From: Spirosoma spitsbergense DSM 19989 | Lineage (GTDB): Bacteria > Bacteroidota > Bacteroidia > Cytophagales > Spirosomataceae | Assembly (NCBI RefSeq): GCF_000374085.1 | Contig: NZ_KB893466.1 | Span: forward strand, 30,714 to 88,958 | DNA: 58,245 bases | Reading direction: 5' to 3' | Shown here: one piece after another, positions 26,424 to 48,300 of the stretch | Layout: every line of letters begins with the position of its first letter | Position numbering within the stretch: the first letter of the stretch is position 1 | Notes under the pieces: model-generated | Seen by the model: the letters and a program-made list of their open reading frames with translations, nothing else | Databases searched by the model: none | What the model was told of the DNA's origin: nothing | Made by a program: the position numbers and the translations under genes

Positions 26424-26425
26424 GC

Positions 26426-31722: not shown

Positions 31723-31776
31723 TAGTTGCTAGATTTATTGTTTGGCTGGCAAGCTAAACCACCAGGCAGGAGCTCA

Positions 31777-31783
31777 AAAGGAC
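31777..31783 (-). promoter_or_regulatory. GTCCTTT leader element (c)
   Basis: Minus strand TTTTTTGCGTCCTTTTGAG, 55 nt before the start at 31722. It lies between a weak hairpin (31785-31812) and the tail genes, and marks the downstream edge of cargo cassette 1. Confidence 0.55.
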
Positions 31784-31946
31784 GCAAAAAAGCCACGGCT
31801 GGCTGGCTGTGGTGCGTAGCATTAGCTATGAATAAAAAAAACTTATTGTTACATTTAACACGAGTAATGATGTAGTTGAGTTTTGCAAATCAGTCTCACG
31901 AAAGAGAGATATTGCTTATCAATTCTAATTAAATAAATCAACTCTA

Positions 31947-33410
31947 ATGTGCCCTAACCTTAAAAATAATAATAAAATAATGGCGTTTGAACCAGTAATA
32001 CCTTTCAAATCAAGTTTTGAATTTATTGAAAACTTTGAGTTACCTAAAGTTGGAATGATTAGAAGTGATAAATTCGGAATTCAAGAAACTGAAACTGAAA
32101 TTTTTACATCTAAAAATCGTTTTGATTTTAACTTTCGAATAAAATCAAAATCTTTTCAAGAGAATATAGATAAAAATATAGCAATTAAAAATATTGATCT
32201 TGTATATAATGATACAAGTTTAGTTTTAGATGAATTATTTATATCAAAAGAAGATTTTAGTTTTGATGGTAATCATTCATATGCCGGACATATATCAAGA
32301 TTTTGGCCTAAGGATTTTAAAAAAAGTTCATCTTATTATTTTAAAATTATTATACCGTTACAAAAGAAAATAGATTATCATAATAAATTAGACTATAGAA
32401 TAAAATATGGAATAATAGTTGATATTGGTAAAAGATTGTTTCGTGTTAAATTGTCCTCATTTAAGCAGCCTGACGGAAATGAAAAATATTTCTTTACCCT
32501 TGAGTCTAACGAAAAAGGAACACTTGATTTTGTTGCTAAGCACACCTTTTCAATATTGATTGCCATTGGTTATATAACAGGGGAATTTATTGGCGGTAAG
32601 TGTTATTATTTTGTCTATAAAAGTAAAACAAATACAACGCATAATTTTTTTTGTTTCTCAGAATTAAGAGCTTCGATGACTTCAAGTTATGTGCCTGTAT
32701 TTTCTAATCCCTATGCTTACGAGTACTACCGTCTCCCAAAGAATAGAGCATTAGCTGATAAAGTAGCTAAAACCTTGAGGCCTCTCAGTTCAAATGAATT
32801 TAGTAAACTTTGTGAAGAAATTAATTCATCTACAGATTTTGCATCTATTTTGATGGCAGTAATAGAATCAAGTACAGCCAGCTTATTGCCTATGGCTGGT
32901 GGTTATGCGATTGCCTTGGAGGCATTGTCAGATTTGATTTTAAAAGAAGTATTACAAGAAAACTTAGCTCCGATTAAAGATAAAAAACTAGCTAGTTTGT
33001 TATTGTTGGAATTGAAGGCAACTCTAAGTAGAGTTTGTCCAGATTTAGATAGTGACTCTCGGACCCCCATCATTAAGAAAATTGATAATATAAATCAAAA
33101 AACAAACATGGATAACTTGAAAGCTCCTTTTGAACTTTTAGGTATTGCATTGTCAAAATCAGATTTGCATATAATTAAAACTAGAAATGATTTATTACAT
33201 GGTAGAATTCCAGTTATAGACAAGATAAGCGCGAAAAATATTCAAGAAGAAAATAAGATTTTATTTTACACATCAGTTAGTCTCTATGTATTAATTAATT
33301 GTTTGGTATTAAAACGTATTGGGTACAATAACAAAATAGTTAATTACCCTAAAATTTATCAAAATTACACTAAGATTAAACTTAAAGGAAAACACTTTAG
33401 GCAGATATGA
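31947..33410 (+). CDS. Cargo cassette 1: HEPN-domain protein, candidate abortive-infection RNase
   Basis: 487 residues, strongly AT-rich coding and on the strand opposite to the phage genes. The N-terminal ~250 residues are beta-rich and unrecognised. The C-terminal ~170 are helical and contain IIKTRNDLLHGRI, i.e. an R-x4-H HEPN ribonuclease motif (R413, N414, H418). The layout (N-terminal beta-rich sensor, C-terminal HEPN) resembles ApeA-type anti-phage proteins. I infer an RNase that acts on host or phage RNA upon infection. M12 (31980) is an alternative start. The companion RES gene follows. Confidence 0.7.
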   Translation: MCPNLKNNNKIMAFEPVIPFKSSFEFIENFELPKVGMIRSDKFGIQETETEIFTSKNRFDFNFRIKSKSFQENIDKNIAIKNIDLVYNDTSLVLDELFISKEDFSFDGNHSYAGHISRFWPKDFKKSSSYYFKIIIPLQKKIDYHNKLDYRIKYGIIVDIGKRLFRVKLSSFKQPDGNEKYFFTLESNEKGTLDFVAKHTFSILIAIGYITGEFIGGKCYYFVYKSKTNTTHNFFCFSELRASMTSSYVPVFSNPYAYEYYRLPKNRALADKVAKTLRPLSSNEFSKLCEEINSSTDFASILMAVIESSTASLLPMAGGYAIALEALSDLILKEVLQENLAPIKDKKLASLLLLELKATLSRVCPDLDSDSRTPIIKKIDNINQKTNMDNLKAPFELLGIALSKSDLHIIKTRNDLLHGRIPVIDKISAKNIQEENKILFYTSVSLYVLINCLVLKRIGYNNKIVNYPKIYQNYTKIKLKGKHFRQI

Positions 33411-33563
33411 TTTAGATGAACCATATTTAAATTTCTTAAATAAGCCTTTAGGTTTCTATGCATCCAACTTTAATAATTAAAAGTGATTCTGATTTGTTTA
33501 ATGTTAAAAATTTTTTAACCTATTAATGTGGAAATTTTCACTAGTAATTATATATACAATATA

Positions 33564-34421
33564 ATGAAAATGCGACCGTATCAAATATTAGAACAACAGC
33601 TGGTGCCTCTAAGGCGCTTTTTGCTTAAAGGTTCTATTCGAGAAAATGACATATCCGGTTTAGTCTATTACTTTGGGAAAATATCTAATTTTCTTACAAG
33701 TCTTACTTACAAAGAAAAAATTAAGGGATTTAAACGAGTAACGATTAATAAAAGGGTTTTAGGTAAGCAGGAAAGGATTTTAGATACTTCATATTTACAG
33801 TATCCACCTAAAGGATTCGTAAAAAACTATGGAAGGCTAAACTCGCCTGGTGAAAGTATTCTATATGCAACCTTTGATCCAATGACGGCCATTTATGAAC
33901 TACGGCCAGTTGAGGGGGACTTAATTACCTATTCTACTTGGGAATTGACCAGTAATTATGATTTAACAGTGACTCCGATTTATAAAGTCTTAACTAAAGA
34001 TGGAGAAATTTTTAACGGAGATTCTTTGAGAGCTAACGCAATAGCACATGAGCACATGGCTAAATTAGATGAAGAATTACAACTACAGTTAAATGTTATT
34101 TTAGATTTTATTGCAAGTTGCTTCGTTAAAGAAGTTGATGATACGAATCACTTTGATTATTTCCTAAGTGCGCACTATGCAAATAGGATATTTTGGGAGT
34201 TACAAGATGGAGAGATTGATGCAATCATATATCCAAGCGTTAGACAGAATTTAACTCTTTCTAACATTGCAATAAAGCCAGAAGTTTTCATTGAAAATTA
34301 TACTTTAAAGGAGGTTGAAGAAAGTATAGTTGAAAAAGTTTCTGATAATGGCCGTGCGTGGAGCTTAATAGGCACTGGTGATTCAAGACAATTCGAAAAT
34401 GGAAAAGTAATTTGGCAATAA
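33564..34421 (+). CDS. Cargo cassette 1: RES-domain protein
   Basis: About 285 residues from ATG 33564; GTG at 33528 adds 12 residues. The RES signature is clear: YGRLNSPGESILYATFD and AIYELRP, giving R91, Y101 and E112, with IIYPSVRQ and NIAIKPEVF later. RES toxins degrade NAD+ (phosphorolysis or hydrolysis) or ADP-ribosylate targets, and normally sit beside an Xre-type antitoxin; none is present here. The N-terminal ~80 residues may restrain activity or bind a partner. AT-rich like the HEPN gene, 153 bp downstream of it on the same strand, so probably co-acquired. Confidence 0.75.
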   Translation: MKMRPYQILEQQLVPLRRFLLKGSIRENDISGLVYYFGKISNFLTSLTYKEKIKGFKRVTINKRVLGKQERILDTSYLQYPPKGFVKNYGRLNSPGESILYATFDPMTAIYELRPVEGDLITYSTWELTSNYDLTVTPIYKVLTKDGEIFNGDSLRANAIAHEHMAKLDEELQLQLNVILDFIASCFVKEVDDTNHFDYFLSAHYANRIFWELQDGEIDAIIYPSVRQNLTLSNIAIKPEVFIENYTLKEVEESIVEKVSDNGRAWSLIGTGDSRQFENGKVIWQ

Positions 34422-34462
34422 GCAATAATCCTTTTAAGTGGTTAAAGCTTATTGCTAAATTA

Positions 34463-35884
34463 CTAAGCCCTCACTAGGAGAGCCGTGGCTGGCTGCTTAA
34501 TCGGCAGACTTATGGAGATGCTGGCCACCCAATAATCCAGGCCGTTTATGTGCACCTTTTCGGAAAAGTCTAGCGTGGCCAGATCAACCTCGTTTAAATC
34601 CAGATTCCGCTCCAGGTAGAAACGGCTCACTCGGTTGGCCTCCGTTCGTTTCCAGAATGTAGCGGCCAGGCCATCGGCTCCAGTCCAGTAAAGGGAGAGC
34701 GCCCCCCGTTTGGCCGTGGCCACCGGCAGCGGTTCCGCGTTCGGAGCTGCCTGGAGCCCGTTCCAAAACAAGAGCCGTGGCGTAAACTTACTGGAGAGCT
34801 GGCCGAACTGCTCCGAGATACCGGCCTGGCTCGTTATGGCCAGGCCGGTGGCCGGATCCGTTAGCAGGGTGGAGAAACGGCTGGTTAGTGGTGTTATGGT
34901 GGTTTCGGTGGCCAGCTCCGGCGTTAGGTAGTCGGCCAGGATTGGTGGCTTGTCTTTGGTCAATCCGTCGCCACTGTCCTGCTCACTGCCTAACTGCAAA
35001 CGCCTGGCCATCTCTGGCCGCTTTTTAGCCCCTTTGAGCGCTTTTTTGCTCCAGTCTTTACTGGTGGCCATTTTGTGGTAATTATCCATAAAATCCAGCC
35101 TTATGGCTCTCTCATTGGTATCCACTCGCATGGCCAGGTTAAAGAGTTTCCGGAGCTCCAGCAATAGCCCCGGAATGGTAAGCTCTGGCAGGTGTTTCTG
35201 GAGCTCCACCGTAGTACGGCCATCCAGCGCCCTGGTGTTGTAGAGTAAGAGCTGGCTCAAATCCGGATCCTCCATAAACTGGCCGGTTATGCTTACTCCG
35301 GTGAGCTCCGATATTTGCAAAAGGATTTCCTTTAAAAAAGGGAAAGGCACCACCGGCCCCGCTGCCGTATAAGCTCCGGCCTGGTAGTTGTTGACTCTGC
35401 CGGAGTAGTTTATGGCCGTTCCGTTCGTGCCGTAAAAGTCGGCATTTAGTACCGTAGGAAAGGCCAGAACGTTCCGGCCAAATTGCTGGAGTGTTGGCGT
35501 AAGGGTGGCCGGTAGTGCCAGGGTGCCAAAAGAGAGCTCTGGCAGCGTTTTCTTTTGCGCGTCGCCAAATAGCTCACCGAGTGGCTGAACAACGGCCAGC
35601 GCAAAGGTTTGCGCGGCCTCGGTGAGTATGGCCACCCCGGCCTGGAGCCGCTGGCCATTATAATACTTTTCGCATTTGTAACGCATACCCACGGCCTCAC
35701 TCTGGAGCAGATCCGGAAAGCCCAAAATTATCCGGTTTCGCCTGGTGGCAGGCAGCGCTGGAATGGTTGCCCTATTGCTCAAAATATCCTCATAAGCCAG
35801 GAAAGGGTTTATGAGCTCCAGCCCCACCGATGTATCCGGCGTAAGGTCGACCACCTGGCCATCCATTCTAATTTGTAAGCTCAT
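34463..35884 (-). CDS. Phage tail hub/baseplate-region protein
   Basis: 473 residues (MSLQIRMDGQVVDLTPDTSVGLEL ...). It has a beta-rich N-terminal part and domains that look tail-associated, with a hydrophilic Lys-rich loop near 280-300. It overlaps the next upstream gene by one base. In phages of this layout, large proteins around the tape measure form the distal tail and hub. No family name can be assigned with confidence. Confidence 0.65.
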   Translation of the reverse strand: MSLQIRMDGQVVDLTPDTSVGLELINPFLAYEDILSNRATIPALPATRRNRIILGFPDLLQSEAVGMRYKCEKYYNGQRLQAGVAILTEAAQTFALAVVQPLGELFGDAQKKTLPELSFGTLALPATLTPTLQQFGRNVLAFPTVLNADFYGTNGTAINYSGRVNNYQAGAYTAAGPVVPFPFLKEILLQISELTGVSITGQFMEDPDLSQLLLYNTRALDGRTTVELQKHLPELTIPGLLLELRKLFNLAMRVDTNERAIRLDFMDNYHKMATSKDWSKKALKGAKKRPEMARRLQLGSEQDSGDGLTKDKPPILADYLTPELATETTITPLTSRFSTLLTDPATGLAITSQAGISEQFGQLSSKFTPRLLFWNGLQAAPNAEPLPVATAKRGALSLYWTGADGLAATFWKRTEANRVSRFYLERNLDLNEVDLATLDFSEKVHINGLDYWVASISISLPIKQPATALLVRA

Positions 35885-37950
35885 TAGGTTAGTTTGATGT
35901 AAAGTTTGTTGCCGGATGCTGGCCGGATTGGTAGCGCTAATTGTTCGTAGCCGTCCAGGTTGGCCAGATAGTTCTGGTTTGAAACCAGAGCGCCATCCAC
36001 GTAAACCTTTACGTTTAGCGTGGTGCCTGGAGTGCCGTAAATAATTAAAAGATAGTCAAATGTGGGTTTTGCCGGAAAACTTAGATCCGTGGAAAAGCGT
36101 GGATAGATATATGGCCTGGTTTCCCCTTGTAAATTCCAGGTATTGCCAATGGCTGGCTCTTGCGTGTCGACTACGTTTAAATAAATATCAAATAGGTTTG
36201 GGTTGTTGACTCGGTAACGCCAATGGCCTGCCACGGTGGCCACCTGGTAGAGCTCCGGCGCTGCCGTACAAGTGCCAAACTGGTCGGCATAAGCCTGCGT
36301 ATTGAGTTGCCTAAATTCGGCCTCTGCTCTCTGGCTGGCTTCGTCCTGGCTGATCTCGGAGCCGTATTTTCCGGCTGGTATGATAATGGTGGCCGTGTCG
36401 CCTATCTGGCCATTTATGCACGTTGTACGCTTGTAAGTGGTCGGCCTGGTGAGCGCCTGGCTAGGGTAGGGAGTTGATCCGGCAGTAACGCCTGGCAGCG
36501 GCAGGCTATCCGCATAATCCGAATTACCTGGCTGGTTTGGCTTTTCGGTGAGTGGTTTAAAGGTGGTGTTATCGTCCACGTAATACTTTTGGAGTTTGAG
36601 CGGCCTGGCTTTTCCGGTTCGTTTGCCGTATTCGTCCAGGATCTGGACAACGCCCACCCCTCGCCACTTGGTAGGCCTGGCCATTACGGCAGGAGCCACC
36701 GGCATGGTGGAATAATTAAACTGTGGTGTGGCCATTCGAAAAGTAAAGCTCCTGGCCTGTAAATCGGAATTATCCTCCTTAATTACCAGGCCGCTGGTTA
36801 AGAGCTCCAGCGCCTGGTGGCCACGGCTATCCACCAGGTAAACCTCTTTGGCCAGGAGTAACTCACTCAAATAAAGGAGCTGCTCCTGGCTCTGCTGTTC
36901 AAAATATCCCGTACTTATGGCCAGCTCCCTGGAGCCTTTTATCTGAATCACTCGGAGCTCTGCAAAATCGGCAGGAGCTCCGGCAGGCCGCTCCATCTCT
37001 GCCGTTGTTCGTTCGGTGTTCAGGGTTTCGGATCCCTCTCCCAAAAGTCGTAATGTGTCCCATCCTCCCAGGCTATTGGTAAATAAAATCCATTGCTCCT
37101 GGCTCCGGTAGGTGTAATCTATTTTGTACGTCCGTACCTCACTGATCCGGTTTCTGTTGCCATCGGTAAGCCAAACCTCATAATAGTCCACATCTCCAGG
37201 CCTAAACTGGAGCGCTGCCGGATGGACTGGTACACTAACCACCTGGAACGGCTGGCCACCGGCCAGCGCCCCCCGCTCCAGTACCTCCACCGTGGCACCG
37301 TTGTATTTTGGCCGCTTATAGTGGACTCTAACCCGCCGTAAAATGGTGGCTGGCACCGTGGCCATATTGAGCAAAAAATGTAAATACTCCGGCTGGTTTG
37401 GCCCTATCGTTTTGCCGTTCGGGTGCCAGGTCAGGAAAGGCCGGTTTTTGCTCATGTAGTCGGTAAAAAACGAATTACCCCAGGCCACAAAATCCCGCTC
37501 CGAGAGCCCCGCTTTTAATACCCACCGGCTGGCCTGGCTCCTAGTGGCTCCTGGCAGGAGCTGGCTATTATTTTCCACGGTCTCCGTGGTAATGTATGGC
37601 ATGGTAAGCGTAGGAATTATGGCCATCTCGGTAGTACCAAACTCCGGCTTTTGGTGCTCCAGGAATCCATCCAGGAGCTCATCCAACTGGAAATAACAGC
37701 CCTCGTAAACCACCGAGCCATTACCCCTGGCCGGTGGCTTTTCGGCTCCTGGCATCTTTACCAGTCGTTTAAATTGGCTGGAGCCAGCAAACTCCGGAAC
37801 TAAGAGCTCCAGGTAATACCGGAGGCCGGAGCGGTCGGCCAGGCTGGTATCTACCGAATCAATTACGTACTCTATCTGGTTTCTGGAAAACATAACCGGC
37901 AGGAAGGCTAGGCCGGTATTTAACGGGTCAATCTGTGTACTAAAGTCCAT
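35884..37950 (-). CDS. Large tail protein with DUF5977-like segment
   Basis: About 688 residues from ATG 37950 (MDFSTQIDPLN); the open frame to 37980 uses TTG. Near residue 545 ASQRAEAEFRQLNTQAYADQFGTC resembles the DUF5977 repeat of Bacteroidota surface and phage proteins; the C-terminal ~110 residues look like a carbohydrate-binding-type beta sandwich (FDYLLIIYGTPGTTLNVKVYVDGALV). Probably part of the tail tip that contacts the host. A leader element sits 56 nt upstream. Confidence 0.65.
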   Translation of the reverse strand: MDFSTQIDPLNTGLAFLPVMFSRNQIEYVIDSVDTSLADRSGLRYYLELLVPEFAGSSQFKRLVKMPGAEKPPARGNGSVVYEGCYFQLDELLDGFLEHQKPEFGTTEMAIIPTLTMPYITTETVENNSQLLPGATRSQASRWVLKAGLSERDFVAWGNSFFTDYMSKNRPFLTWHPNGKTIGPNQPEYLHFLLNMATVPATILRRVRVHYKRPKYNGATVEVLERGALAGGQPFQVVSVPVHPAALQFRPGDVDYYEVWLTDGNRNRISEVRTYKIDYTYRSQEQWILFTNSLGGWDTLRLLGEGSETLNTERTTAEMERPAGAPADFAELRVIQIKGSRELAISTGYFEQQSQEQLLYLSELLLAKEVYLVDSRGHQALELLTSGLVIKEDNSDLQARSFTFRMATPQFNYSTMPVAPAVMARPTKWRGVGVVQILDEYGKRTGKARPLKLQKYYVDDNTTFKPLTEKPNQPGNSDYADSLPLPGVTAGSTPYPSQALTRPTTYKRTTCINGQIGDTATIIIPAGKYGSEISQDEASQRAEAEFRQLNTQAYADQFGTCTAAPELYQVATVAGHWRYRVNNPNLFDIYLNVVDTQEPAIGNTWNLQGETRPYIYPRFSTDLSFPAKPTFDYLLIIYGTPGTTLNVKVYVDGALVSNQNYLANLDGYEQLALPIRPASGNKLYIKLT

Positions 37951-38005
37951 AAAAAAAGGCTCAATCGTTGATTTTGTCAAAGTTGAGCCCTGGAGTGAGT
38001 ACTGG

Positions 38006-38012
38006 AAAGGAC
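38006..38012 (-). promoter_or_regulatory. GTCCTTT leader element (d)
   Basis: Minus strand GTCCTTTCCAG, 56 nt before the start at 37950. It marks the downstream edge of cargo cassette 2. Confidence 0.55.
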
Positions 38013-38071
38013 GGATTAAATTGCCTAATTGGATACTATAGTTCTATATTTGAGTTACTTGATTTTAGAAA

Positions 38072-38578
38072 ATGGATTTACCAACGCACATCTTAGATAT
38101 AATTAAAACTATTACTGGCTGTATAGCTATAGTTGCATTGATAATCACAGTTAAGCAACTTAAACTATCTAGAGCAACTGTTTTGTTGAACAGTTTAAGG
38201 GGTATTTATGAAGAGAATACAAAAATAAGAAAACTCTTTGCAGATGGAATTAAGCAGAGAAATATCTTGGTCTCATTGTTGGAGAATGATAAATTGGAAA
38301 AGAGTTATATTTATTATATCTATAGCGATGAAAAATATAATGCGATTAGAGAGATTGGATACCATTATGAATATATGGGACTTATAATTAAAAATAAAGT
38401 GCTACCATTCAATGTACTTTTTAGCCTTATTCAATTTCCAGATACATTTTGGGATGAATCAGGGGTATTCGTTTGCCTAATGCGAGAGAACTACACAGTA
38501 GATTTTTGGGAAAATTTTGAATATTTACAAAAAAAATATAAAAAAAAGCGCCTAAAGAAAAAGAGAAGAAAGTTATAA
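38072..38578 (+). CDS. Cargo cassette 2: single-helix membrane protein
   Basis: 168 residues: one N-terminal membrane helix (about 9-28; IIKTITGCIAIVALIITV) and a helical cytoplasmic domain with a Lys/Arg-rich tail (KKRLKKKRRKL). It resembles the DUF4760-type layout, but I cannot confirm membership. AT-rich coding and plus strand, unlike the surrounding phage genes. Probably a moron gene expressed in the lysogen. Confidence 0.6.
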   Translation: MDLPTHILDIIKTITGCIAIVALIITVKQLKLSRATVLLNSLRGIYEENTKIRKLFADGIKQRNILVSLLENDKLEKSYIYYIYSDEKYNAIREIGYHYEYMGLIIKNKVLPFNVLFSLIQFPDTFWDESGVFVCLMRENYTVDFWENFEYLQKKYKKKRLKKKRRKL

Positions 38579-38637
38579 AGTAGAAGTTTGTTATAATATT
38601 TTCATTTTTACTTTAACAATAAATTTTTTTTCAGAGT

Positions 38638-39654: not shown

Positions 39655-39666
39655 TTTTATAAATTT

Positions 39667-39840
39667 TTAATTACTTCCATTTGCAAAATTTTGCTGTAGG
39701 CTCATTTTGATTAAGTTAAACTTCGTTCCGATAAGGAGCCATTGCCCTGAAAATACAGTGGCTCCAGCCAGGTAAAGCAATACGAAGGGAGCGACTAGCA
39801 TCCAGACTAACCAAAAGCGAATCATTTTAAAGAGTTTCAT
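39667..39840 (-). CDS. 57-residue small membrane phage protein
   Basis: ATG at 39840 opens a 57-codon frame: MKLFKMIRFWLVWMLVAPFV followed by a continuing hydrophobic stretch to about residue 36, then a polar tail. Too short for a simple ORF scan. It overlaps the stop region of the upstream gene by 14 bp and keeps phage-like composition. Could be a holin-like or tail-chaperone-size protein; one membrane helix is certain. Confidence 0.55.
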   Translation of the reverse strand: MKLFKMIRFWLVWMLVAPFVLLYLAGATVFSGQWLLIGTKFNLIKMSLQQNFANGSN

Positions 39841-40297
39841 ACATTTCAGCGTTTATCATTAGGCCAATTCTAAACCGTACCTCGTAGCCGTAAGAGGCCT
39901 CTAAAGTAACCATAGAAACTGGCTCCATAAAGGTCTTTGCCAGCGGGTCAATCAAAACGGTATAATTATCCTCCTGGCTCCGAATGGTGGCCGCTATGCC
40001 GGTGGCCATCTGTTCGGCCTCATCAAACGCTCTATCTTCGTCTAGTTCGTCGCTCATGTTTCCGGCGCAAACAACGTAAAACGTGGCATCAAACCAGGCC
40101 ATACTTAAGCCAGCGCCATTATCCTCCGTGCTGTACTTAGGCCGTAATAAAAAAACGGCAGGATAAAGATCCTCACTCCTGGAGTTCGCTATAAGTCTGT
40201 CCATTTTATCCCCTCCGGATTGGCTCACCGTGTTAACGCCTGGCACCGATTGAGCCAGCGGTTTAAAGAAGTCCCAAAATAAATTTGTACAGGTCAT
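39827..40297 (-). CDS. Phage head-tail connector/tail-terminator-like protein
   Basis: 156 residues; mixed alpha/beta composition. The shape (short N-terminal helix, DNGAGLSMAWFDATFYVVCAG strand region, C-terminal ASYGYEVRFRIGLMINA) is like tail-terminator or minor tail proteins that are encoded between portal and tail genes. It shares a 1-bp overlap with the upstream gene. No diagnostic motif. Confidence 0.6.
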   Translation of the reverse strand: MTCTNLFWDFFKPLAQSVPGVNTVSQSGGDKMDRLIANSRSEDLYPAVFLLRPKYSTEDNGAGLSMAWFDATFYVVCAGNMSDELDEDRAFDEAEQMATGIAATIRSQEDNYTVLIDPLAKTFMEPVSMVTLEASYGYEVRFRIGLMINAEMYETL

Positions 40298-41154
40298 TAG
40301 CTCGCGTCTTGTTGTTTACGGTGTTCTATTTCGGCCAGTATATCCTTTCTGTTTTCCTCCAGGAAAATTAAAACATCGTGCAAATTGGCCGCTTTGGTCT
40401 GCTCCAGGTTGCCAAAAATTCCCTTTGTTGCCAGGAGGTGGCTGTTTTTAATCCAGCTCTGGCCAGGGTATTGCTCCGGCTCTCCGGCCTCACCACCACC
40501 GAGCTCATACCTGGCCAGTACGTGCTCCATGTTTCCCGCAAAAAACAGGAGTACGGCCATTTTGTGGCCTGGCTCCAGGGTGGCCAGGAGTTTGGCTCTC
40601 TCTTTGGCCGTAAACTCGTTGTAAAGCTCTCGGTGGTCTCCGTTCCAATCCGGAGCGCTCTGGTAATCTCCAGCCCTGGCTGGTCGACAAATAGCGGCCA
40701 CTAACAAATCCAGGTACTCATCTCCTTTGACTAGCTGCCGGATCCAAACCAAAAAGTAAACGTAAGCATCTGTTAGCTCTCCGTAACTCATGGTTAAAAA
40801 TCCGGTTTCCGGCAGGAGCCAGGTGTGGCCAAAGTCCAGCTCCAGGCTGGCAAATGGCTGCTCCTGGATTGGCTCCGTTTCCATCCACCGGAGTTGGCTC
40901 TTTAGGGTGTGCAATACCAAGGCGTTAGCCTCTTTGGCTCGTTTGCCCACGGTTGGCCCAAAATGCTTTTGCATAAGTTTGAGCCAGGCTTTTTTCCGGA
41001 GCCCTAGCACTAAACGGATTTTTTCGTGGAAACTCTCCGGCGTGGCTGGAGCAAAGTAAACAAGCTGGAGCAGTTGCGGAATCCGCTCCGGATCTAGCTC
41101 ACTCCAGCGCTCCGGCAGCTCATAGGCCTGGCCATCTAGTTGGATTGGTTGCAT
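40297..41154 (-). CDS. Hypothetical phage protein
   Basis: About 285 residues from ATG 41154 (MQPIQLDGQAYELPERW); the longer frame to 41250 has no good start context. Soluble, helical, Trp/Leu-rich, no domain recognised. It lies between the connector-like gene and the lysis candidates. A forming-tail or head-completion role is likely from position only. Confidence 0.65.
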   Translation of the reverse strand: MQPIQLDGQAYELPERWSELDPERIPQLLQLVYFAPATPESFHEKIRLVLGLRKKAWLKLMQKHFGPTVGKRAKEANALVLHTLKSQLRWMETEPIQEQPFASLELDFGHTWLLPETGFLTMSYGELTDAYVYFLVWIRQLVKGDEYLDLLVAAICRPARAGDYQSAPDWNGDHRELYNEFTAKERAKLLATLEPGHKMAVLLFFAGNMEHVLARYELGGGEAGEPEQYPGQSWIKNSHLLATKGIFGNLEQTKAANLHDVLIFLEENRKDILAEIEHRKQQDAS

Positions 41155-41165
41155 TTGGTTTGTGG

Positions 41166-41291
41166 TTATTCGGTAAAGAGTAAGGCCATGAGTACGCACC
41201 CAAATTTGTAGCCAGCCAGCCCTAAAATGGATAGGATCAACATGGCACAAAGGGTAAATCTGGCCGTTTTTTGTTTCGTTAGTTTGTACAT
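41166..41291 (-). CDS. 41-residue hydrophobic micro-protein
   Basis: ATG 41291; MYKLTKQKTARFTLCAMLIL then further hydrophobic residues to the end (LAGYKFGCVLMALLFTE). One or two short helices with a basic N-terminus. Placed 11 bp upstream of the next gene start and close to the endolysin-like gene, so holin-like function is possible, but size alone is not proof. Confidence 0.45.
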   Translation of the reverse strand: MYKLTKQKTARFTLCAMLILSILGLAGYKFGCVLMALLFTE

Positions 41292-41343
41292 TTTGGTGAG
41301 TTTATGGTAGTTGTTTATGGGTTTCCGGCAGGCTCATAATAAC

Positions 41344-42015
41344 TTAAGGAGGCTTAAGGGTGGCCAGGTATGGCGTTAGCCAGTTGGCAATAAATTTGAT
41401 CTCTGACTTTTTGCGCCTGTTGATATAACAGCCATATTTTGTGCCACGGCCTCCGGATGTGTTAAACCCTATCAGTGTTACAAATTCGTCGTCAGGATCC
41501 CAGACATCGGAAACTAAGCCCTCTATGTGGCTGGTGTAAATACTAACGGCATCCATCCGGCGCGGCATTACTCCGAGCCGCTGGTTTCCCCGCTGGTTTT
41601 TTCGGTAGATAATTTTTCCGGTGGTGGAAAAGTAGCTGGCCACGGCTCCGAGCGCTCTAACCGGCAGTTTTACGCCATTCACTCGGTGAGCGTAATAATA
41701 GCCAGAGGCACAATAGGCCGAACGGATTGGCAGGCCGTTATAACGGTTAATTTTGGTAATCCACGGAGCATCATTATTATTGTTTATCTCCGTCATTCCC
41801 ACAAAAACAGCGGCAGAATCCAGGATGGCCTGCCGCAAAATAGTCTCATCCAGGGTAAATGGTTTGGCTGGATAGGTGGCGTTTTTATCCGGCCCCTGGA
41901 TTGGCTTAAGGGTGGCCACCTTTTGGGTGGCCACCGGCTGATTTACGGTTTGACTCCGTGCGACAAAGCAGAATGCAAAATAAATAAAGCAACAAAACCG
42001 AATGTTATTAGGCAT
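41344..42015 (-). CDS. CHAP-like peptidoglycan hydrolase, candidate endolysin
   Basis: 223 residues. An N-terminal hydrophobic signal-like segment (about 1-21) is followed by a linker and a cysteine-hydrolase-like domain: GMTEINNNNDAPWI, then AYCASGYYYAH with C102, YTSHIEGLV with H163, and IGFNTSGG with N185, giving a Cys-His-Asn set. This pattern suits CHAP/NlpC-type amidases or endopeptidases that cut the cell wall at lysis. Export by its own signal would bypass a classic holin. It overlaps the upstream membrane gene by 73 bp. Confidence 0.65.
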   Translation of the reverse strand: MPNNIRFCCFIYFAFCFVARSQTVNQPVATQKVATLKPIQGPDKNATYPAKPFTLDETILRQAILDSAAVFVGMTEINNNNDAPWITKINRYNGLPIRSAYCASGYYYAHRVNGVKLPVRALGAVASYFSTTGKIIYRKNQRGNQRLGVMPRRMDAVSIYTSHIEGLVSDVWDPDDEFVTLIGFNTSGGRGTKYGCYINRRKKSEIKFIANWLTPYLATLKPP

Positions 42016-42707
42016 CTCTGGAATGGGGTTAAATCCTCAAAAAACTCTGTAAAAAAATCCTTTCTTGACCGAATGAAAGGCAGCAAATAGAGCCCTACAA
42101 ATGGCACCAGGATAAGTAGTTTAAAGAGCCCCACCGGCAGATCCCAAAACTCCACGTACTTCTCAAAAAAGAATTTTTGATTGCTGGTAATGTCGTAAGC
42201 GTTCATTTGCTGCTCAACTGGCAGCGCTTTATTGAGCGTGTTTATCTCATCTCCTACGCTGGTAAAATTGGAGCTTGCCCAAATGATGGCCACCACCAGG
42301 AGGGAAATCTGGACAATGGCACCCAAACGGTGTTTGAGCAGGCCGTGGACTTTCTCCAGGGTGGATTTTTCGGCCTCGGTTGGCTCTGTCGGTTCATCGA
42401 TGGCCAGGCCTAACTCCCGGCCTAATTGTACGGCCTGCCGGTCGGCATCCAGCGCCCACTGGATGTACATTTTCTTACTGGTTTCGTCGGTCTCCTTTGC
42501 TGCCGTGGCTCGGAATCCAGCGGCATCCTCTCGGAGCCCCTGGTAATTATCCAGCTTCGCCTGCCGCTCTGCTTCGTCGGCCTGCTGTTTCTTAAAAATA
42601 AGCTCATCCTCCTGCCGCTGGAGTTCCTCCCTGGCTAACTGGAGTTTGTAGGCCGCTGCCTCGTAAGGATCTAGTGGCGTGTCCACTGTGCTGTTTTCGT
42701 CGTTCAC
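41943..42707 (-). CDS. Phage membrane protein with N-terminal coiled coil
   Basis: 254 residues. Residues about 15-105 are a charged coiled coil (AREELQRQEDELIFKKQQADEAER), followed by three hydrophobic helices (LGAIVQISLLVVAIIWASS, FKLLILVPFVGLYLLPFI, CLITFGFVALFILHSALS). The gene overlaps the endolysin candidate by 73 bp. The position suggests a lysis or membrane-anchoring role, but it is larger than usual holins. Not recognised. Confidence 0.6.
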   Translation of the reverse strand: MNDENSTVDTPLDPYEAAAYKLQLAREELQRQEDELIFKKQQADEAERQAKLDNYQGLREDAAGFRATAAKETDETSKKMYIQWALDADRQAVQLGRELGLAIDEPTEPTEAEKSTLEKVHGLLKHRLGAIVQISLLVVAIIWASSNFTSVGDEINTLNKALPVEQQMNAYDITSNQKFFFEKYVEFWDLPVGLFKLLILVPFVGLYLLPFIRSRKDFFTEFFEDLTPFQRCLITFGFVALFILHSALSHGVKP

Positions 42708-42728
42708 TGGTTTTACTGTTTTTGATTG

Positions 42729-43697
42729 TTAGAGAATTATTAAAGAGGAATTTGTAAAATCGTCGGTGGTGCTCTGGCCGGTTTTTGGTAGGCTGGCCTG
42801 GTGATAGCCTGGCCAGAGCTCGGTGGTGGCCGTGGCTTTTAGGTAGTCCTGGAGCTCGGAAAGATAAAACTGGCCATCCTGGTAGAGTTGCCGCTTTTGG
42901 GTGCCTTTGTTGGTCTCACTCGGAGCCACTTCCTCCATAGTACCGTTTTTACTACGGCGCTCGGTAATGCCGGAAACATCCAGCGTTAAAGGGAGATAAG
43001 GATAAGCCTCAAATAGCGCCATGTGAGCCAGCGCTGGCCGGATGGCATCCAGTAGAGCCTGCTCTGGCTCGGTGAACGTATAGGCCGAATTTGCCCACTT
43101 TGCTTTTAGATCCGTATAAACCGGCTCCGTTAGGACTGGCTTAATATAGGTTTGTTCGGCTCTCCGAACGTAAGTAATGAGCTGCTCAAATAGTCGGCTT
43201 TTGCGCCCTAGTGTGGGTAAATGTTCGGCCAGCTCGGAGGCCGAACGAATCCAGAGCTTTTGGCGCTTTTTATAGGCTGCTGAATCCAGCCAGGCCGGTG
43301 GCCGGATCTGTTCCACTGCCATCCAAAAGTTTTCCTGTGCTAAATCCAGCATGGCCAGGTTAGCCTCACGGCTATCCACATACTCCCACTTAGCCACGGC
43401 CACCGTGTTTTGGGTGTTTAGCTTTTGAATCCCTAAATCACTGGCTCGGAGTTTTAGGTGTGGAAAAGCCATCTCATAACAGCGCCAACTCATGCACGAA
43501 TTAGCCAGATAAAGTAAATCGGCCTCCGGAGAGCCTGCCACTGGATTGCCTAAACCGGCCAGGTAGGCCATTAGCTCCTGGCCTACCTGGTCGACAAACC
43601 AGCGCTCGGAAAAGTTGGCAAATGGCTCCACCGTGGCAAAGTCCAGTTTTGCCTGGATGCCTCCCAGGTGTTGCTTTAAAATCTCTCTGTTTAGCAT
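42729..43697 (-). CDS. Phage protein downstream of portal (DUF6712-like)
   Basis: 322 residues, soluble, Trp/Leu/Ala-rich helices (MLNREILKQHLGGIQAKLDFATVEPF ...). It overlaps the portal stop by one base. From memory the start and position are like the DUF6712 proteins that follow portal genes in Bacteroidota phages; this is not certain. Likely a head-tail connector or adaptor. Confidence 0.6.
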   Translation of the reverse strand: MLNREILKQHLGGIQAKLDFATVEPFANFSERWFVDQVGQELMAYLAGLGNPVAGSPEADLLYLANSCMSWRCYEMAFPHLKLRASDLGIQKLNTQNTVAVAKWEYVDSREANLAMLDLAQENFWMAVEQIRPPAWLDSAAYKKRQKLWIRSASELAEHLPTLGRKSRLFEQLITYVRRAEQTYIKPVLTEPVYTDLKAKWANSAYTFTEPEQALLDAIRPALAHMALFEAYPYLPLTLDVSGITERRSKNGTMEEVAPSETNKGTQKRQLYQDGQFYLSELQDYLKATATTELWPGYHQASLPKTGQSTTDDFTNSSLIIL

Positions 43698-44968
43698 TAT
43701 GCTCCGTGGTTTACTACTGCCTGTTTTCCGGTTGGATTTTTGTCCAGGGTGGTAAGTTGTACCTCCTTAAAGGCCGGTATTAGATCCTTATAGCCCATCA
43801 CTCGGAGCGCCATCTGGATAGGCTCCAGTAAAATCTGCCTTTGTACCGGCGTTCTAAAATGTTGCTGGTAGTCGGCCACCGTCCGTACCTGGCTGCCAGA
43901 GTCTCCGGATTTGCTGCCAGGTGTTACGCCACCCAAAACCGGCAGGATCCCCACCGCGTTGGTAATGGAGATGTTAGCCATCTCCCAAACCTTTGCATAG
44001 GCATCGTCGGAGTTTTCGTTTTTCATTGGCACCACATCGATACTTTCCAGCGCTTTGCCATCGTCGGCCCGTAGGTAGCGCACCAGGAGGGATTTATTAA
44101 CGTTCTCCACTCCGGAGAGCCATGTTTTGAGGTTTTCCCCAAAGGATGCCCATTTTTTACGGATGGCCTCCGGCTCCAGATCCCTGCCGCCCTCCTGGTC
44201 AAAATAATCCTTTGGCATCTTGATAAGGTACTTAATGTTGTACCCGTTTTTGAGGCCGGATTTGTGGAATAAGGGTATTAGGTTGGCCACCTCTATCCAG
44301 TCCCTGGAGCACCACCAGGAGGGAAAAGCATAAAATGGATTGCCAGAGATGTGCTCCCGGCTGTGGAAAATACTCACCACGTTCCGCTTTGGATCCGCTC
44401 GGTTAAAGGCCTGTATTTTCTCACTCTGGCCAGTCTTTCCCCACCCCTCACCAAAGGAGGAATTTTGTAGGTAATGCTGGACTTTGTTGGCCACCGGCCT
44501 GCCAATTCGCGTGGTGAATCCATCCGAGATGGAAAGCAGCGGCAGGCCATCCGGTGTAAACTCAAAGCGCGTAAAGTGGTTGGCATTTGTTACCCGCTCG
44601 TTAATGGCTGCTATGGCATAATTCTGGAGCTCCGTCTGGTACAACCAATCTTTTAAACGCTCATCCATGTACGGCTCCAGGTGGGTGGTTTTTCCCTCAT
44701 GTACCTGGTTGAAAAAGCCTACTCCAGTGCCAAAAATCATATCCCTGGTGGCCTCCAGGAGCGGCCTCACCTGGTTGTTTTGTTCTACCAGCCTGGCCAT
44801 TTTGTTTGGCTGGTTATCCTCCGGCCCCCACGGAATATGATCTAAACCGTTTTGGTGAGTCAGGAGCAGACTGGAGCCAAAAACCTGATCCCGGCCATTT
44901 ACTAGCTGGAGCACCGCCCCGTTTTTCTCACTCGGTATTAAAAAAGCATTCTCACTAATTGACTCCAT
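43697..44968 (-). CDS. Probable portal protein
   Basis: 423 residues. Portal-like features: an N-terminal acidic region; LEATRDMIFGTGVGFFNQV resembling the DNA-packaging wing; SIFHSREHISGNPFYAFPSWW; a central helical clip/stem part; and C-terminal VADYQQHFRTPVQRQILLEP like the crown region of portals. The portal forms the ring through which DNA is packaged by terminase. It is more than 25 kb from the terminase genes, which is atypical. Confidence 0.72.
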   Translation of the reverse strand: MESISENAFLIPSEKNGAVLQLVNGRDQVFGSSLLLTHQNGLDHIPWGPEDNQPNKMARLVEQNNQVRPLLEATRDMIFGTGVGFFNQVHEGKTTHLEPYMDERLKDWLYQTELQNYAIAAINERVTNANHFTRFEFTPDGLPLLSISDGFTTRIGRPVANKVQHYLQNSSFGEGWGKTGQSEKIQAFNRADPKRNVVSIFHSREHISGNPFYAFPSWWCSRDWIEVANLIPLFHKSGLKNGYNIKYLIKMPKDYFDQEGGRDLEPEAIRKKWASFGENLKTWLSGVENVNKSLLVRYLRADDGKALESIDVVPMKNENSDDAYAKVWEMANISITNAVGILPVLGGVTPGSKSGDSGSQVRTVADYQQHFRTPVQRQILLEPIQMALRVMGYKDLIPAFKEVQLTTLDKNPTGKQAVVNHGA

Positions 44969-44971
44969 AAA

Positions 44972-45271
44972 TTAAAAAGTATGTACCACTCGTAGGCCGT
45001 TATAGTGTGTAATGAGGTCTATACAGATCTCAAAGGGTTTGTTATTGTTCTCTAGGTTCTCCAGGAGTAAAACGTGGTTTAAATTGATGTTCCCCCGGTA
45101 GCCACGCTCTCCAGGTAAGTTTTTGCTGCATTTGCGTACTCTGGCCTTTTGGCCCACCGTGCTATCCTTTTTTACGTACTTAAGGCCGAACGTATGCACC
45201 TGGCCGCTGCCTCTGGTATCCTGGTGGATTTCGGCAAACATGGCCCTCCTGGTGATTGTATTAGAGGCCAT
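44972..45271 (-). CDS. Small phage protein upstream of portal
   Basis: 99 residues, basic (MASNTITRRAMFAEIHQDTRG ...), with a beta-like C-terminal part (KPFEICIDLITHYNGLRVVHTF). No membrane segment or domain recognised. It overlaps the upstream gene by 11 bp and precedes the portal start by 3 bp. Confidence 0.6.
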   Translation of the reverse strand: MASNTITRRAMFAEIHQDTRGSGQVHTFGLKYVKKDSTVGQKARVRKCSKNLPGERGYRGNINLNHVLLLENLENNNKPFEICIDLITHYNGLRVVHTF

Positions 45272-45464
45272 AAGTTAAGCGTTTGCTGGCCGAAACGGCA
45301 GGCTCCAGGACTCGGTAATAATGGCCGGAGGCCAGGGTAATATGGCTCACCTGGTCAGGCTTCGCCATATCCTGCTCCACCGTGGCCACGTACTCCGGAT
45401 TGATGTCCACGGTTCGGCTAGGCCCGTCCGAGTCAGTAATAAATTTGATAAGTTTTAAGGCCAT
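45261..45464 (-). CDS. Small phage protein
   Basis: 67 residues, beta-like (LKLIKFITDSDGPSRTVDIN ... HITLASGHYYRV). It overlaps the next gene by 11 bp. A leader element lies 58 nt upstream. Unknown role. Confidence 0.6.
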   Translation of the reverse strand: MALKLIKFITDSDGPSRTVDINPEYVATVEQDMAKPDQVSHITLASGHYYRVLEPAVSASKRLTYGL

Positions 45465-45521
45465 CGGCTCTGGTTGTTTTTAAGTTGGTGGCTCAAAGTT
45501 GCGCCCTGGAGCCACCACTGG

Positions 45522-45528
45522 AAAGGAC
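45522..45528 (-). promoter_or_regulatory. GTCCTTT leader element (e)
   Basis: Minus strand AGTCCTTTCCAGTGG, 58 nt before the start at 45464, at the stop codon of the upstream gene (45536). Confidence 0.55.
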
Positions 45529-45535
45529 TGTTTTG

Positions 45536-45967
45536 TTAGGGTAATAAGCCTTTTATTTTACCCGCTATGTAGAGCGCTACGGCCATCCTCATGGCCCAAA
45601 CCTCCAGCCTGGCCTGCTTCGTTTTTAGGGTTTGCTCACCGAGTAACTGCTTTGTGGTGGTGAGCTCTCCGGAGAGTTTTGTGGTGGTGAGCTTGTACGC
45701 CTGGAGCTCTCCAGCCTGCCGCTGGTTTATGGCCTCCTGTTCCGAGATTTGCGCTTTGTAAACCACCTCTCTCTTAATAGCCCAGTCCAGTTTTATAAGA
45801 TCCTGGTGGATGTTTTTGGCGTTATGGATGTAATCCACGGCCACGGCCAGGCTATCGGTGGAGCACCTGTTTTTTGTATCGTTCGTTGATTGTCCGCATA
45901 GTTTCAAGCTCATTAAGAGCAGCGGCAGAATCCAGCGCGTTTTTTTCACGGAAAAATAAAAGCTCAT
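45536..45967 (-). CDS. Candidate outer spanin-like / membrane coiled-coil protein
   Basis: 143 residues. N-terminal hydrophobic segment ILPLLLMSLKLCGQS has a Cys at a lipobox-like place, though Leu rather than Gly/Ala precedes it. Then a coiled coil (about 65-115; SGELTTTKQLLGEQTLKTKQA) and a C-terminal hydrophobic patch. It starts inside the upstream gene in a different frame (116-bp overlap), like nested Rz/Rz1 spanin genes. Spanin assignment is a hypothesis. Confidence 0.5.
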   Translation of the reverse strand: MSFYFSVKKTRWILPLLLMSLKLCGQSTNDTKNRCSTDSLAVAVDYIHNAKNIHQDLIKLDWAIKREVVYKAQISEQEAINQRQAGELQAYKLTTTKLSGELTTTKQLLGEQTLKTKQARLEVWAMRMAVALYIAGKIKGLLP

Positions 45968-46226
45968 TTTGTAGGTGTTTTATAGTTATGTTTCTTTCGG
46001 ATAGTACGGCGCTCCATCTCACCGAGTCGGCAAAGGATTGAGCCGTGGCATTTGTTCGGAGTAGCGTGGCTCTTTCATCCTGGCAGGCCTGGAGCTCTCC
46101 CTGGCCGGTAAATCGACTAATGAGCCAGGTGGCACCAATACCGATGGCCACGGCCACCAGCTCCCAAATAAAGCGGCTGGAATTGCCCTTTATAAATTCC
46201 CAGATAGTACTTAAAAACTGTTTCAT
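45852..46226 (-). CDS. Candidate inner spanin-like protein
   Basis: 124 residues: one N-terminal membrane helix (about 19-38; IWELVAVAIGIGATWLIS), then a periplasmic-looking coiled coil (QACQDERATLLRTNATAQSF ... LFFREKNALDSAAALNELE). This is the standard layout of an Rz-type inner spanin; the next gene is nested out of frame in its 3' end. A leader element lies 33 nt upstream, just after cassette 3. Confidence 0.5.
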   Translation of the reverse strand: MKQFLSTIWEFIKGNSSRFIWELVAVAIGIGATWLISRFTGQGELQACQDERATLLRTNATAQSFADSVRWSAVLSERNITIKHLQNELLFFREKNALDSAAALNELETMRTINERYKKQVLHR

Positions 46227-46258
46227 GGCTCAAAGGTGGCCACCGGCCTGGCCAGCCA

Positions 46259-46265
46259 AAAGGAC
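46259..46265 (-). promoter_or_regulatory. GTCCTTT leader element (f)
   Basis: Minus strand GTCCTTTTGG, directly after a terminator T-run, 33 nt before the start at 46226. It marks the downstream edge of cassette 3. Confidence 0.55.
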
Positions 46266-46266
46266 A

Positions 46267-46294
46267 TAAAAAAAGCCCTCCTGAATGGAGGGCT
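46267..46294 (-). terminator. Terminator after cassette 3
   Basis: AGCCCTCC, 5-nt loop, GGAGGGCT; on the minus strand the stem is followed by a T-run. It isolates the cassette transcript from the spanin-like genes. Confidence 0.85.
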
Positions 46295-46316
46295 CAAAAC
46301 TCGATAGTCGTACTTA

Positions 46317-46931
46317 CTAGGTATTGTCTCGTTCTCTGTTCCTTCGTTCTGATTTGATTCGCTCTATAGTTAATAGAGAGTGATGCATCTGACCAAAAGT
46401 AAACACATTGGAAACCAAGTTAGGAATAATGAGCAAACCCCAAAAGCCTAAAAAAGACAGAATGAAAACAAGTAGAGCATTAACAGAATCCACCGTGATT
46501 TGAGAATTTGATTTGAACTCAAACTTGTTTAGAAAAGTGATCAAGAAAGCTGCAATAAAAGCGGCTAATTGTAAAAGTATAGAGAATGCAAAGACCCCAC
46601 TGAGTTTTTGAAAAATGGTAGATTTTTTTCCTGCATTTTTTCTGGTCATAGCTTTAAGTAGACTTCCATTACCAAAGCCTACAATAAGTGCATATCCTCC
46701 TAAGTTGAATCCTAGTAAATTTGGAAAAACGGCCATTATCTGTTCGGTCCAGAATATTAAAATTTCATAAAAAGATTTAGAGGAGAGCCAAGTTATGACT
46801 AATGTAGTGACAGCAAGCGCAATGCTTACCCAAAAAGGTATAGACTCTCCAATCTCTTTAGCATCATATGCATGCATAATGCCCTTGTAGCTGAATGGAT
46901 GGTCTTTTTTGATTTGATCGTTATCATTCAT
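46317..46931 (-). CDS. Cargo cassette 3: four-helix membrane protein
   Basis: 204 residues, AT-rich coding. Four hydrophobic helices: about 32-48, 65-90 (containing FPNLLGFNLGGYALIVGFGN), 110-130 and 148-172. The GFxxGGYAxxxGFGN segment recurs in membrane proteins encoded next to defence genes, as far as I recall. The start overlaps the upstream gene's stop by 8 bp, so the two proteins are probably made in fixed ratio. Tetra-spanning effector paired with a soluble sensor is the scheme of Kiwa, but I see no direct homology to KwaA. Confidence 0.65.
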   Translation of the reverse strand: MNDNDQIKKDHPFSYKGIMHAYDAKEIGESIPFWVSIALAVTTLVITWLSSKSFYEILIFWTEQIMAVFPNLLGFNLGGYALIVGFGNGSLLKAMTRKNAGKKSTIFQKLSGVFAFSILLQLAAFIAAFLITFLNKFEFKSNSQITVDSVNALLVFILSFLGFWGLLIIPNLVSNVFTFGQMHHSLLTIERIKSERRNRERDNT

Positions 46932-47811
46932 CGTTGTTGTTATATCGTTGTGTTACCTCCATAAATATAACATTTTTTAGGTTATCTTCAGATGTTGCCA
47001 TTGCCTTATTTCTTTCAGGATGCTCCTTTGTAACTATGGTTTTAGTTTTTCCTTGAGCATTTTTGATCTTAGCCCTAACTTGACCATTTTCAACAGCAAG
47101 TTTTAAGCTGCCTCTGATCAGCTTTGTATTCATATTTATTGATTCATTCTTCTCTGCCTGAAAATCTAAACTAGCCTCACTTACATTAGAATCCTTCAAT
47201 TCATCGTCCAGCCAGTTACCTGCTTCGTCGCCAATATCGTCTGCATTGGTGTATGACACACTAATGTGGAGTTTCTCTACTTTATCTGCATTAAATATCT
47301 CTTCAAATACGTCTTGTGATTGCTGAACTATGACAGAAAAATCTTCATCACTACTAAGGACTTTGGGTATTGCTTTTATGAAGAAATCGTAAGCATTCTT
47401 TATAGTAAAATCTGAGGATAGTTTTAGGGCAAAACGGTGAGCTTGTGGAATAAAAACATACTCTGTTTCTTGCTTGTTGGGAAATAAACCACTTTCTAAG
47501 TTCATTGTAATGTCCTCTCTCGTAATTACGTTAACCCAAGCGTTATTTTCCAAGTCAGTAAAACGAGTTATCTTGCCGTAATAGAACTCTTTTCCATCAA
47601 TCTTTTCTGGAAACATTGTTCTTATAAATGCTCTTTTCCCTCTGCCAACATGCTCTGTGATAGTGTTATTAAACAAATCCTGGAAAATTTCTCTGTAAGC
47701 TGTTTCACCTCTTCTTCTATCAGAAATTATTTTGATGTTTAAAAGCAGATAGGTAAACGGTATTTGCTTGGGTTTCTTAGGTCCATCTTTTGTTCTTCTT
47801 AGGAGAGCCAT
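46924..47811 (-). CDS. Cargo cassette 3: DUF4747-like soluble protein
   Basis: 295 residues, AT-rich. Segments resembling DUF4747 as I remember it: LLLNIKIISDRRRGETAYREIFQ at the start, FYYGKITRFTDLENNAWVNV near 78, FIPQAHRFALKLS near 118, KLHISVSYTNADD near 182 and LAVENGQVRAK near 239. No nuclease or nucleotide-binding motif is apparent. It overlaps the membrane-protein gene by 8 bp. Two copies of the repressor-operator 9-mer lie in its promoter region. Candidate sensor of a two-gene defence or exclusion system. Confidence 0.6.
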   Translation of the reverse strand: MALLRRTKDGPKKPKQIPFTYLLLNIKIISDRRRGETAYREIFQDLFNNTITEHVGRGKRAFIRTMFPEKIDGKEFYYGKITRFTDLENNAWVNVITREDITMNLESGLFPNKQETEYVFIPQAHRFALKLSSDFTIKNAYDFFIKAIPKVLSSDEDFSVIVQQSQDVFEEIFNADKVEKLHISVSYTNADDIGDEAGNWLDDELKDSNVSEASLDFQAEKNESINMNTKLIRGSLKLAVENGQVRAKIKNAQGKTKTIVTKEHPERNKAMATSEDNLKNVIFMEVTQRYNNNDE

Positions 47812-47884
47812 AATCTAGTAAGGTACTGATTTTGATATATATGAGGGATGTGTCGCCTTTCAAGTTGTAAACTTCGTGTTGGCG

Positions 47885-47926
47885 ATATTGTAAAAGTATT
47901 GCAAGGTAACACTTTGGACAAAAGTA
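47885..47926 (-). promoter_or_regulatory. Cassette 3 promoter with repressor-type 9-mers
   Basis: TACTTTTG on the minus strand (47919-47926) fits the TAnnTTTG box. Downstream of it, ATATTGTAA (47885-47893) and GTATTGCAA (47896-47904), on the plus strand, are direct repeats 11 bp apart and match the 9-mers in the repressor control region (52186-52308). Confidence 0.45.
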
Positions 47927-47955
47927 GGTTTAAATTCAAATTTTTCAAGCATGTA

Positions 47956-48246: not shown

Positions 48247-48300
48247 GGTGGTTTTGTGTCTTAGTACAAGTGTAATGAGAAAGTAAGGCCAGGCCGTGTT

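Follow-up and report, generated by a model that had tools for sequence, protein, structure and literature searches.

We think it likely that the temperate Spirosoma phage integrated in a 58,245-nucleotide stretch of the Spirosoma spitsbergense DSM 19989 genome (hereafter the window, meaning the whole stretch that was analysed) has several cargo slots at the borders of its transcription units, with promoter-led operons downstream and cargo resembling phage morons. Morons, as described in the sections of PMC4378225 drawn on here, are one or more genes of deviating composition lying between genes that are adjacent in relatives; they have their own promoter and terminator, are expressed in the lysogen and benefit the host. 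An earlier note, made from the letters alone, had proposed that three AT-rich cassettes in this phage each adjoin a GTCCTTT leader and form modular cargo slots. GTCCTTT indeed lies next to all three cassettes, on the minus strand at exactly 31777-31783, 38006-38012 and 46259-46265. The cassettes and the leaders that contain these copies are:

31813..34462, cassette of slot A, G+C content 0.297
38013..39666, cassette of slot B, G+C content 0.293
46270..47955, cassette of slot C, G+C content 0.355
31751..31783, minus strand, leader A, a promoter-like two-part motif before gene 31159-31722
37979..38012, minus strand, leader B, promoter-like, before gene 35884-37980
46233..46265, minus strand, leader C, promoter-like, before gene 45852-46226

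The cassettes depart from the phage backbone in base use and partly in strand, as the note had held. The rest of the interval 16324-52135 has a G+C content of 0.506, and every one of the 112 sampled 1-kb segments below 0.40 within it touches a cassette. Genes of the first cassette lie on the plus strand, those of the second on both strands and those of the third on the minus strand, like the phage genes.

The note had suggested comparing the intervals between leader and upstream gene in related prophages, where cargo fixed as part of the core, or found at unrelated positions, would speak against slots. A relative of the protein encoded at 35884-37980 is present in 17 of 36 genus genomes; of its 28 match rows, one is the window itself, 21 yielded the 18 loci taken and six weak ones (E > 1e-7) were omitted. 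Slot counts cover the window prophage and the 10 closest of these 18 related prophages, the eight most distant, in which gene order differs, being left out. The 10 include two prophages from genome G003 (G003a, G003b) and two from G014 (G014a, G014b); the 10 are not independent of one another. Genes were called with a simple open reading frame (ORF) picker.

In this set many neighbouring late genes lie no more than about 100 bases apart, and three intervals vary widely. Slot A (34463-35884 to 31159-31722) is filled in 10 of 11 prophages, the window's included, with 0.8-3.4 kb of DNA at a G+C content of 0.28-0.39, and is empty in G028a (108 bp); at the place of the window's cassette, all 10 close relatives have other cargo or none. 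Slot B (39827-40297 to 35884-37980) holds an AT-rich insert in eight of 10, again including the window (merely 486 bases in G009), and is empty in G014a (248 bp) and G014b (230 bp). These counts omit G003a, where the flank runs past the contig end and a barrel-protein ORF is visible. Slot C (47956-48246 to 45852-46226) is AT-rich in eight of nine, comprising four of four with homologous flanks and four of five judged by eye; no empty slot C occurs among the nine assessed, G028a has no AT-rich cargo there, and G003a (contig end) and G003b (rearranged) are not counted. A fourth slot, D, between 27089-31159 and 26519-26992, recurs and is filled in five of 11. Further variable intervals lie before 22009-22959, before 44972-45271 (with an AT-rich insert in G032a), at some places in the early region and, in G014a and G014b, before 40297-41250.

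The modular slots that the note had envisaged are therefore seen in related prophages, as intervals with other cargo or none. The window's cargo is not a fixed part of the core: among its six cargo genes, compared at E 1e-4, only the slot C pair turns up again, likewise in slot C, in G014a (73 and 70 percent). Two prophages carry a PQQ propeller in slot B and three a barrel protein in slot D, and a comparison of cargo at E 1e-4 found no homologues between different slots. Cargo ORFs of at least 100 amino acids run opposite to the phage genes in 13 of 17 cases in slot A, five of 13 in slot B and five of 12 in slot C.

What is non-random in the GTCCTTT copies is their strand, their place and their second part. 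The window contains eight copies, all on the minus strand, and this raw count is not above chance (shuffle mean 9.12; at least eight in 65 of 100 shuffles). The two-part form GTCCTTT-N21-A-NN-TT fits seven of the eight and has no match on the other strand of the window's prophage stretch. Across the 414 kb of the window prophage and its 10 relatives, GTCCTTT occurs 77 times in sense and 15 times in antisense orientation, for 13.3 and 32.3 expected under an order-2 model. The spacer is exactly 21 in 65 of the 77 sense copies, and the two-part form occurs 65 times in phage sense, once in antisense and never in the reversed control. For 63 of the 77 sense copies, an ORF begins no more than 90 nt downstream. 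In all 36 genus genomes the strict pattern has 89 matches and its reversed form 213, so it is not enriched overall; 46 of the 89 fall in the sampled prophages and the window's own.

The second part of the leader reads (T/C)A-N-(T/C)TTTG (column frequencies over 63 leaders: T/C; A 0.94; TT 1.00; T 0.81; G 0.73; the first T is loose). According to the parts of PMC6847099 used here, Bacteroidota promoters have a -7 box TANNTTTG and a -33 box TTTG. The second part resembles this host -7 box and does so at one fixed spacing. We take the leader to be a putative primary-sigma-type promoter of the phage, one whose upstream box is special and which perhaps requires a phage factor. The gene at 47956-48246 of the window encodes a phage protein of 96 amino acids that weakly matches a PHROG for a late promoter transcriptional regulator (E 0.012); this protein is a candidate for a factor that might read GTCCTTT. 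The slot A leader has GTCCTTT in eight of the 11 close prophages and GTCCTTC in three (G009, G014a and G014b). In G003b (L040:9762-9796) a leader resembling the slot B leader of G003a lies far from slot B, in a rearranged stretch.

Four further leaders in the window have no AT-rich cargo in this phage:

22938..22970, minus strand, leader before gene 22009-22959 (head maturation protease)
26332..26364, minus strand, leader before gene 25759-26349
45495..45528, minus strand, leader before the 44972-45271 operon
51787..51819, minus strand, leader before gene 51544-51777

Among the 11 prophages, which are not independent, an AT-rich insert is present in 24 of 53 leader-bearing intervals versus 13 of 178 without a recognised leader, the 13 including inserts of slot D (Fisher odds ratio 10.5), the leader pattern being looser here than in the count of 65 sense and one antisense; the other 29 leader-bearing intervals have no such insert. 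The leader looks like a mark of phage operon starts in general and not of slots.

The slot borders carry additional elements:

31786..31806, minus strand, terminator-like 21-mer directly before leader A
46268..46295, minus strand, terminator-like hairpin with a run of seven T, between cassette C and leader C
37956..37991, minus strand, inverted repeat that overlaps leader B in its second part, with seven T and an ATG after it; 0 of 100 shuffles reach it

The 21-mer of the window's slot A is identical in slots A and C of G008 and in slot C of G032a. At slot B, an inverted repeat above the 5 percent shuffle level was found in seven of nine leaders examined; its 5' arm reaches the second part of the leader and its 3' arm is followed by T and the ATG. 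The two leaders without it belong to G014a and G014b; slot B is empty in both, and among the 11 these two prophages are also the most distant. Pairing is kept although the arm sequences differ: GGCTCAAC with GTTGAGCC in G003a, GGCTCACC with GGTGAGCC in G009 and GCCTCACC with GGTGAGGC in G003b. Since a transcript started upstream would contain both arms and one started at the leader would lack the first, the repeat could block read-through yet spare the promoter. In several slot A inserts (G003a, G009, G008, G003b and G014a) a long palindrome immediately follows the upstream core gene, the arrangement expected of a bidirectional terminator shared by convergent units.

We propose that the phage keeps several cargo slots where transcription units meet. 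At slots A, B and C the downstream operon would open with its own promoter, with GTCCTTT in the -33 region and a TAnnTTTG-like -7 box, and a terminator-like hairpin would often stand just before that promoter or overlap it. Foreign AT-rich cassettes, each with one or a few genes, would sit behind one operon and ahead of the promoter of the following one, so that phage genes would not be parted from their promoters; the suggestion of the earlier note that this placement protects downstream phage expression is plausible. The cargo, often defence or envelope genes, would probably be expressed in the lysogen and help the host, as morons do.

The cargo genes of the window, and a promoter-like site ahead of one of them, are:

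31947..33410, plus strand, ApeA-like cargo of slot A; HEPN RX4H motif invariant in 16 aligned sequences
33528..34421, plus strand, RES-domain cargo of slot A (PF08808, E 1.8e-6, passing its cut-off); the ATG start may lie at 33564
38072..38578, plus strand, DUF4760 cargo of slot B (PF15956, E 1.1e-5, 26.1 bits with a cut-off of 25)
38638..39654, minus strand, uncharacterised 338-amino-acid cargo of slot B, from a widespread family (378 proteins at E 0.001)
46924..47811, minus strand, DUF4747 cargo of slot C (PF15931, E 2.4e-36), with a predicted RexA fold
46317..46931, minus strand, 204-amino-acid membrane-protein cargo of slot C (phrog_20580, E 2.4e-15; four hydrophobic stretches by eye)
47919..47948, minus strand, host-type promoter-like site ahead of the DUF4747 gene, TTG-N19-TACTTTTG

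RexA is the best fold match of the predicted structure of the DUF4747 protein, and a profile comparison found no sequence similarity to lambda RexA (probability 0.3 percent). Systems of the RexAB type, which exclude other phages, have a four-pass membrane protein next to the RexA-fold protein; the DUF4747 protein's neighbour shows four hydrophobic stretches by eye. Judging from the predicted fold, the slot C genes are probably a RexAB-like exclusion pair. In the first slot A protein, residues R413, N414, L417, H418 and G419 are invariant over the 16 sequences, helices are predicted there, and one relative is named as ApeA N-terminal domain-containing. We call this protein merely ApeA-like because the Pfam ApeA N-terminal and HEPN_Apea models do not match it (0 families at E 0.1 and 0.05). 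A Pfam scan gave no match for the 338-amino-acid protein either; the best 120 of its 378 family members were listed.

In relatives, slot A carries a ThsB-like TIR protein with an EAD11 partner, NACHT, an OLD/GajA-like protein with an ion channel, PIN_8, PD-T7-3 and domainless proteins. Slot B carries bSEFIR and also a barrel protein, PQQ propellers, DoxX and an ECF sigma factor; slot C carries AlbA_2, an RHS-repeat protein and proteins without assignment. PADLOC models matched four of the 10 relatives' cargo proteins shown singly, at 0.001. Defence cargo, as judged from such matches, appears common, most of all in slot A, and is not universal. In slot A of G022 (L035:15729-18481), the OLD/GajA-like protein, a 146-amino-acid protein and the small ion-channel protein share one cassette. 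Slot C of G013 (L044:10982-12471) encodes proteins of 310 and 183 amino acids, the latter with hydrophobic stretches, in a layout like that of the DUF4747 pair and not recognisably related to it.

Several observations weigh against our proposal. None of the six window cargo proteins has a PADLOC match at E 0.1, and many inserts of relatives have no defence domain. Host-type promoter-like sites stand at few of the cargo genes (three of 47, with 0.64 expected; two of the three are in the window). As to the leader, GTCCTTT does not match the host -33 TTTG, the next base being C or T and seldom G. Moreover, G is almost absent inside the host -7 box in the account of PMC6847099 used here, and it occupies one N position of the second part in 29 percent of leaders. 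Hairpins with a run of T lie close upstream of only 17 of 71 leaders, and the promoter-overlapping inverted repeat exceeds chance in 20 of 65 and is absent at the window's leaders A and C. Finally, slot D is without GTCCTTT. The leader does adjoin slots A, B and C, and beyond this it looks like the general mark of operon starts described above.

The slots, in our view, more likely reflect selection for places where cargo does no harm; recombination guided by the leaders is possible. In its full form the latter account, which we hold to be unlikely, would make the leader and terminator blocks exchange sites, at which recombination over short homology, joining similar leaders from different phages or different slots, would swap the cassettes. 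It draws on slot B of G022 (L036, about 2090-3400), where a PQQ-propeller gene is flanked by two copies of the leader with 28 bp exactly in common, on the identical 21-base terminator before slot A and slot C leaders of different prophages, and on the slot-B-like leader at another place in G003b. However, the G022 arrangement is a single case: among 30 slot occupancies scanned, no other long repeat joins the slot ends, and seven other occupancies have 13-17 bp repeats at scattered places. The spacer between the leader parts is also variable even among close relatives, as a promoter would predict. The duplication around the PQQ gene may be a footprint of cargo gain. It is similarly doubtful that a standard border unit (terminator, phage-specific promoter and, at slot B, a hairpin with its 5' arm over the promoter's -7 box) both shields the lytic operons from cargo active in the lysogen and supplies the short homology for swapping defence cassettes among phages, as an evolved docking design and more than a tolerance of inserts.

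Less probable still is that the leader is a binding site or RNA element instead of a promoter, for instance an operator silencing late genes or an anti-termination site. The first box does deviate from the host -33 TTTG, and the inverted repeat surrounds the second part in 20 of 65 leaders, most clearly at slot B (seven of nine). Against this, the second part resembles the host -7 box at a fixed spacing, and an ORF start usually follows within 90 nt (63 of 77). That the cassettes are independent mobile elements targeting the leader, such as transposons or retron- or integron-like units, is very improbable: their composition and gene content are unlike the phage, but the cargo proteins scanned include no transposase or recombinase domain, and the 30 slot occupancies scanned have no recurrent terminal or target repeats.

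Slot A extends beyond the genus. A relative of the protein encoded at 34463-35884 occurs in 62 of 200 family genomes; 10 prophages were sampled from these 62, and slot A was measurable in eight. It exceeds 1 kb in six of the eight, two of which (G060 and G037) are not AT-rich. GTCCTT precedes the downstream gene in all eight slot A flanks from these other genera, and GTCCTTT in six. The cargo varies: G079 has a KAP NTPase next to an ApeA protein that exceeds both Pfam cut-offs, G116 a TonB-type receptor along with two-component-like genes, G095 DUF2971, and G060 and G037 a D12-class DNA methyltransferase (80 percent alike). The slot of G095 spans about 3.6 kb by positions, its computed length of 1437 looking shortened by a stray match; G054 has no cargo ORF among those listed.

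The limits of the prophage were inferred from a 14-bp direct repeat (14171-14184 and 52958-52971):

14171..52971, prophage, about 39 kb

It adjoins tRNA-Ser genes, the left repeat copy lying within the 3' part of tRNA-Ser 14097-14186. PHROGs matches include the terminase large subunit, head maturation protease, tape measure, tail assembly chaperone, single-strand binding protein and a repressor-like regulator. Between the gene at 14440-15699 and the terminase, a plus-strand gene at 15886-16281 encodes a 131-amino-acid protein that has no family match; in four close prophages, relatives occupy the corresponding position. Three related prophages lie on contig 1 of G014, with about 42 kb between two of them. 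In the prophage of G032a (L045, L046) several core genes contain stop codons, and this prophage looks decayed.

How phages acquire such genes is called mysterious in the account of Pseudomonas Mu-like phages drawn on here (PMC4378225). The phage group studied here has several slots, alleles that are filled or empty, a border element in common and a single case of a leader duplicated around a cargo gene, which makes the question testable through analysis of the junctions. A search for new Bacteroidota defence genes can likewise be guided by the slots: several inserts of relatives match known systems, and the unmatched ones, namely cassette 2 and the pair of RES and ApeA-like proteins, are candidate defence genes. 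The two-part leader would in addition supply a promoter signature for operons of these phages.

Compared with known systems, the window system is a structured multi-slot form of phage morons and hotspots. Like morons as described in the sources used, its slots hold extra genes of deviating composition between genes adjacent in relatives, with a likely benefit to the lysogen. Here, however, several fixed slots recur in one phage group, three of them at a common putative phage promoter motif, the cassettes often have two or three genes, and a promoter-like site of their own was found for few cargo genes. The regions of genomic plasticity of Pseudomonas Mu-like phages likewise hold accessory genes at fixed places, some of low G+C content (PMC4378225); the sections cited report no common flank sequence, whereas slots A, B and C share a promoter-like leader on one side. 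The antiviral hotspots of P2-like phages and P4-like satellites share a fixed phage locus with diverse antiviral systems in relatives (PMC9122126, in the parts used), and slot A is such a locus, holding different predicted antiviral systems in relatives. The window system differs from these hotspots in having several slots per phage, Bacteroidota hosts and envelope-type cargo as well, its defence roles being predicted ones.

At the level of single cargo, the ApeA-like protein shares with ApeA a beta-rich N-terminal part, a helical C-terminal part and the invariant RX4H motif, but goes unrecognised by the Pfam ApeA models and is paired with a RES protein. The DUF4747 pair can be likened to lambda RexAB, Sbash gp30/31, CarolAnn gp44/43 and Butters gp30/31, as these are presented in the portions consulted of PMC6426596, PMC6426606, PMC7542560 and PMC11077077: a cytoplasmic protein, here the DUF4747 protein with its predicted RexA fold, is followed by a small membrane protein, in a prophage. 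Unlike them, it occupies a late-gene slot, has no sequence similarity to lambda RexA in the profile comparison and has a predicted exclusion role.

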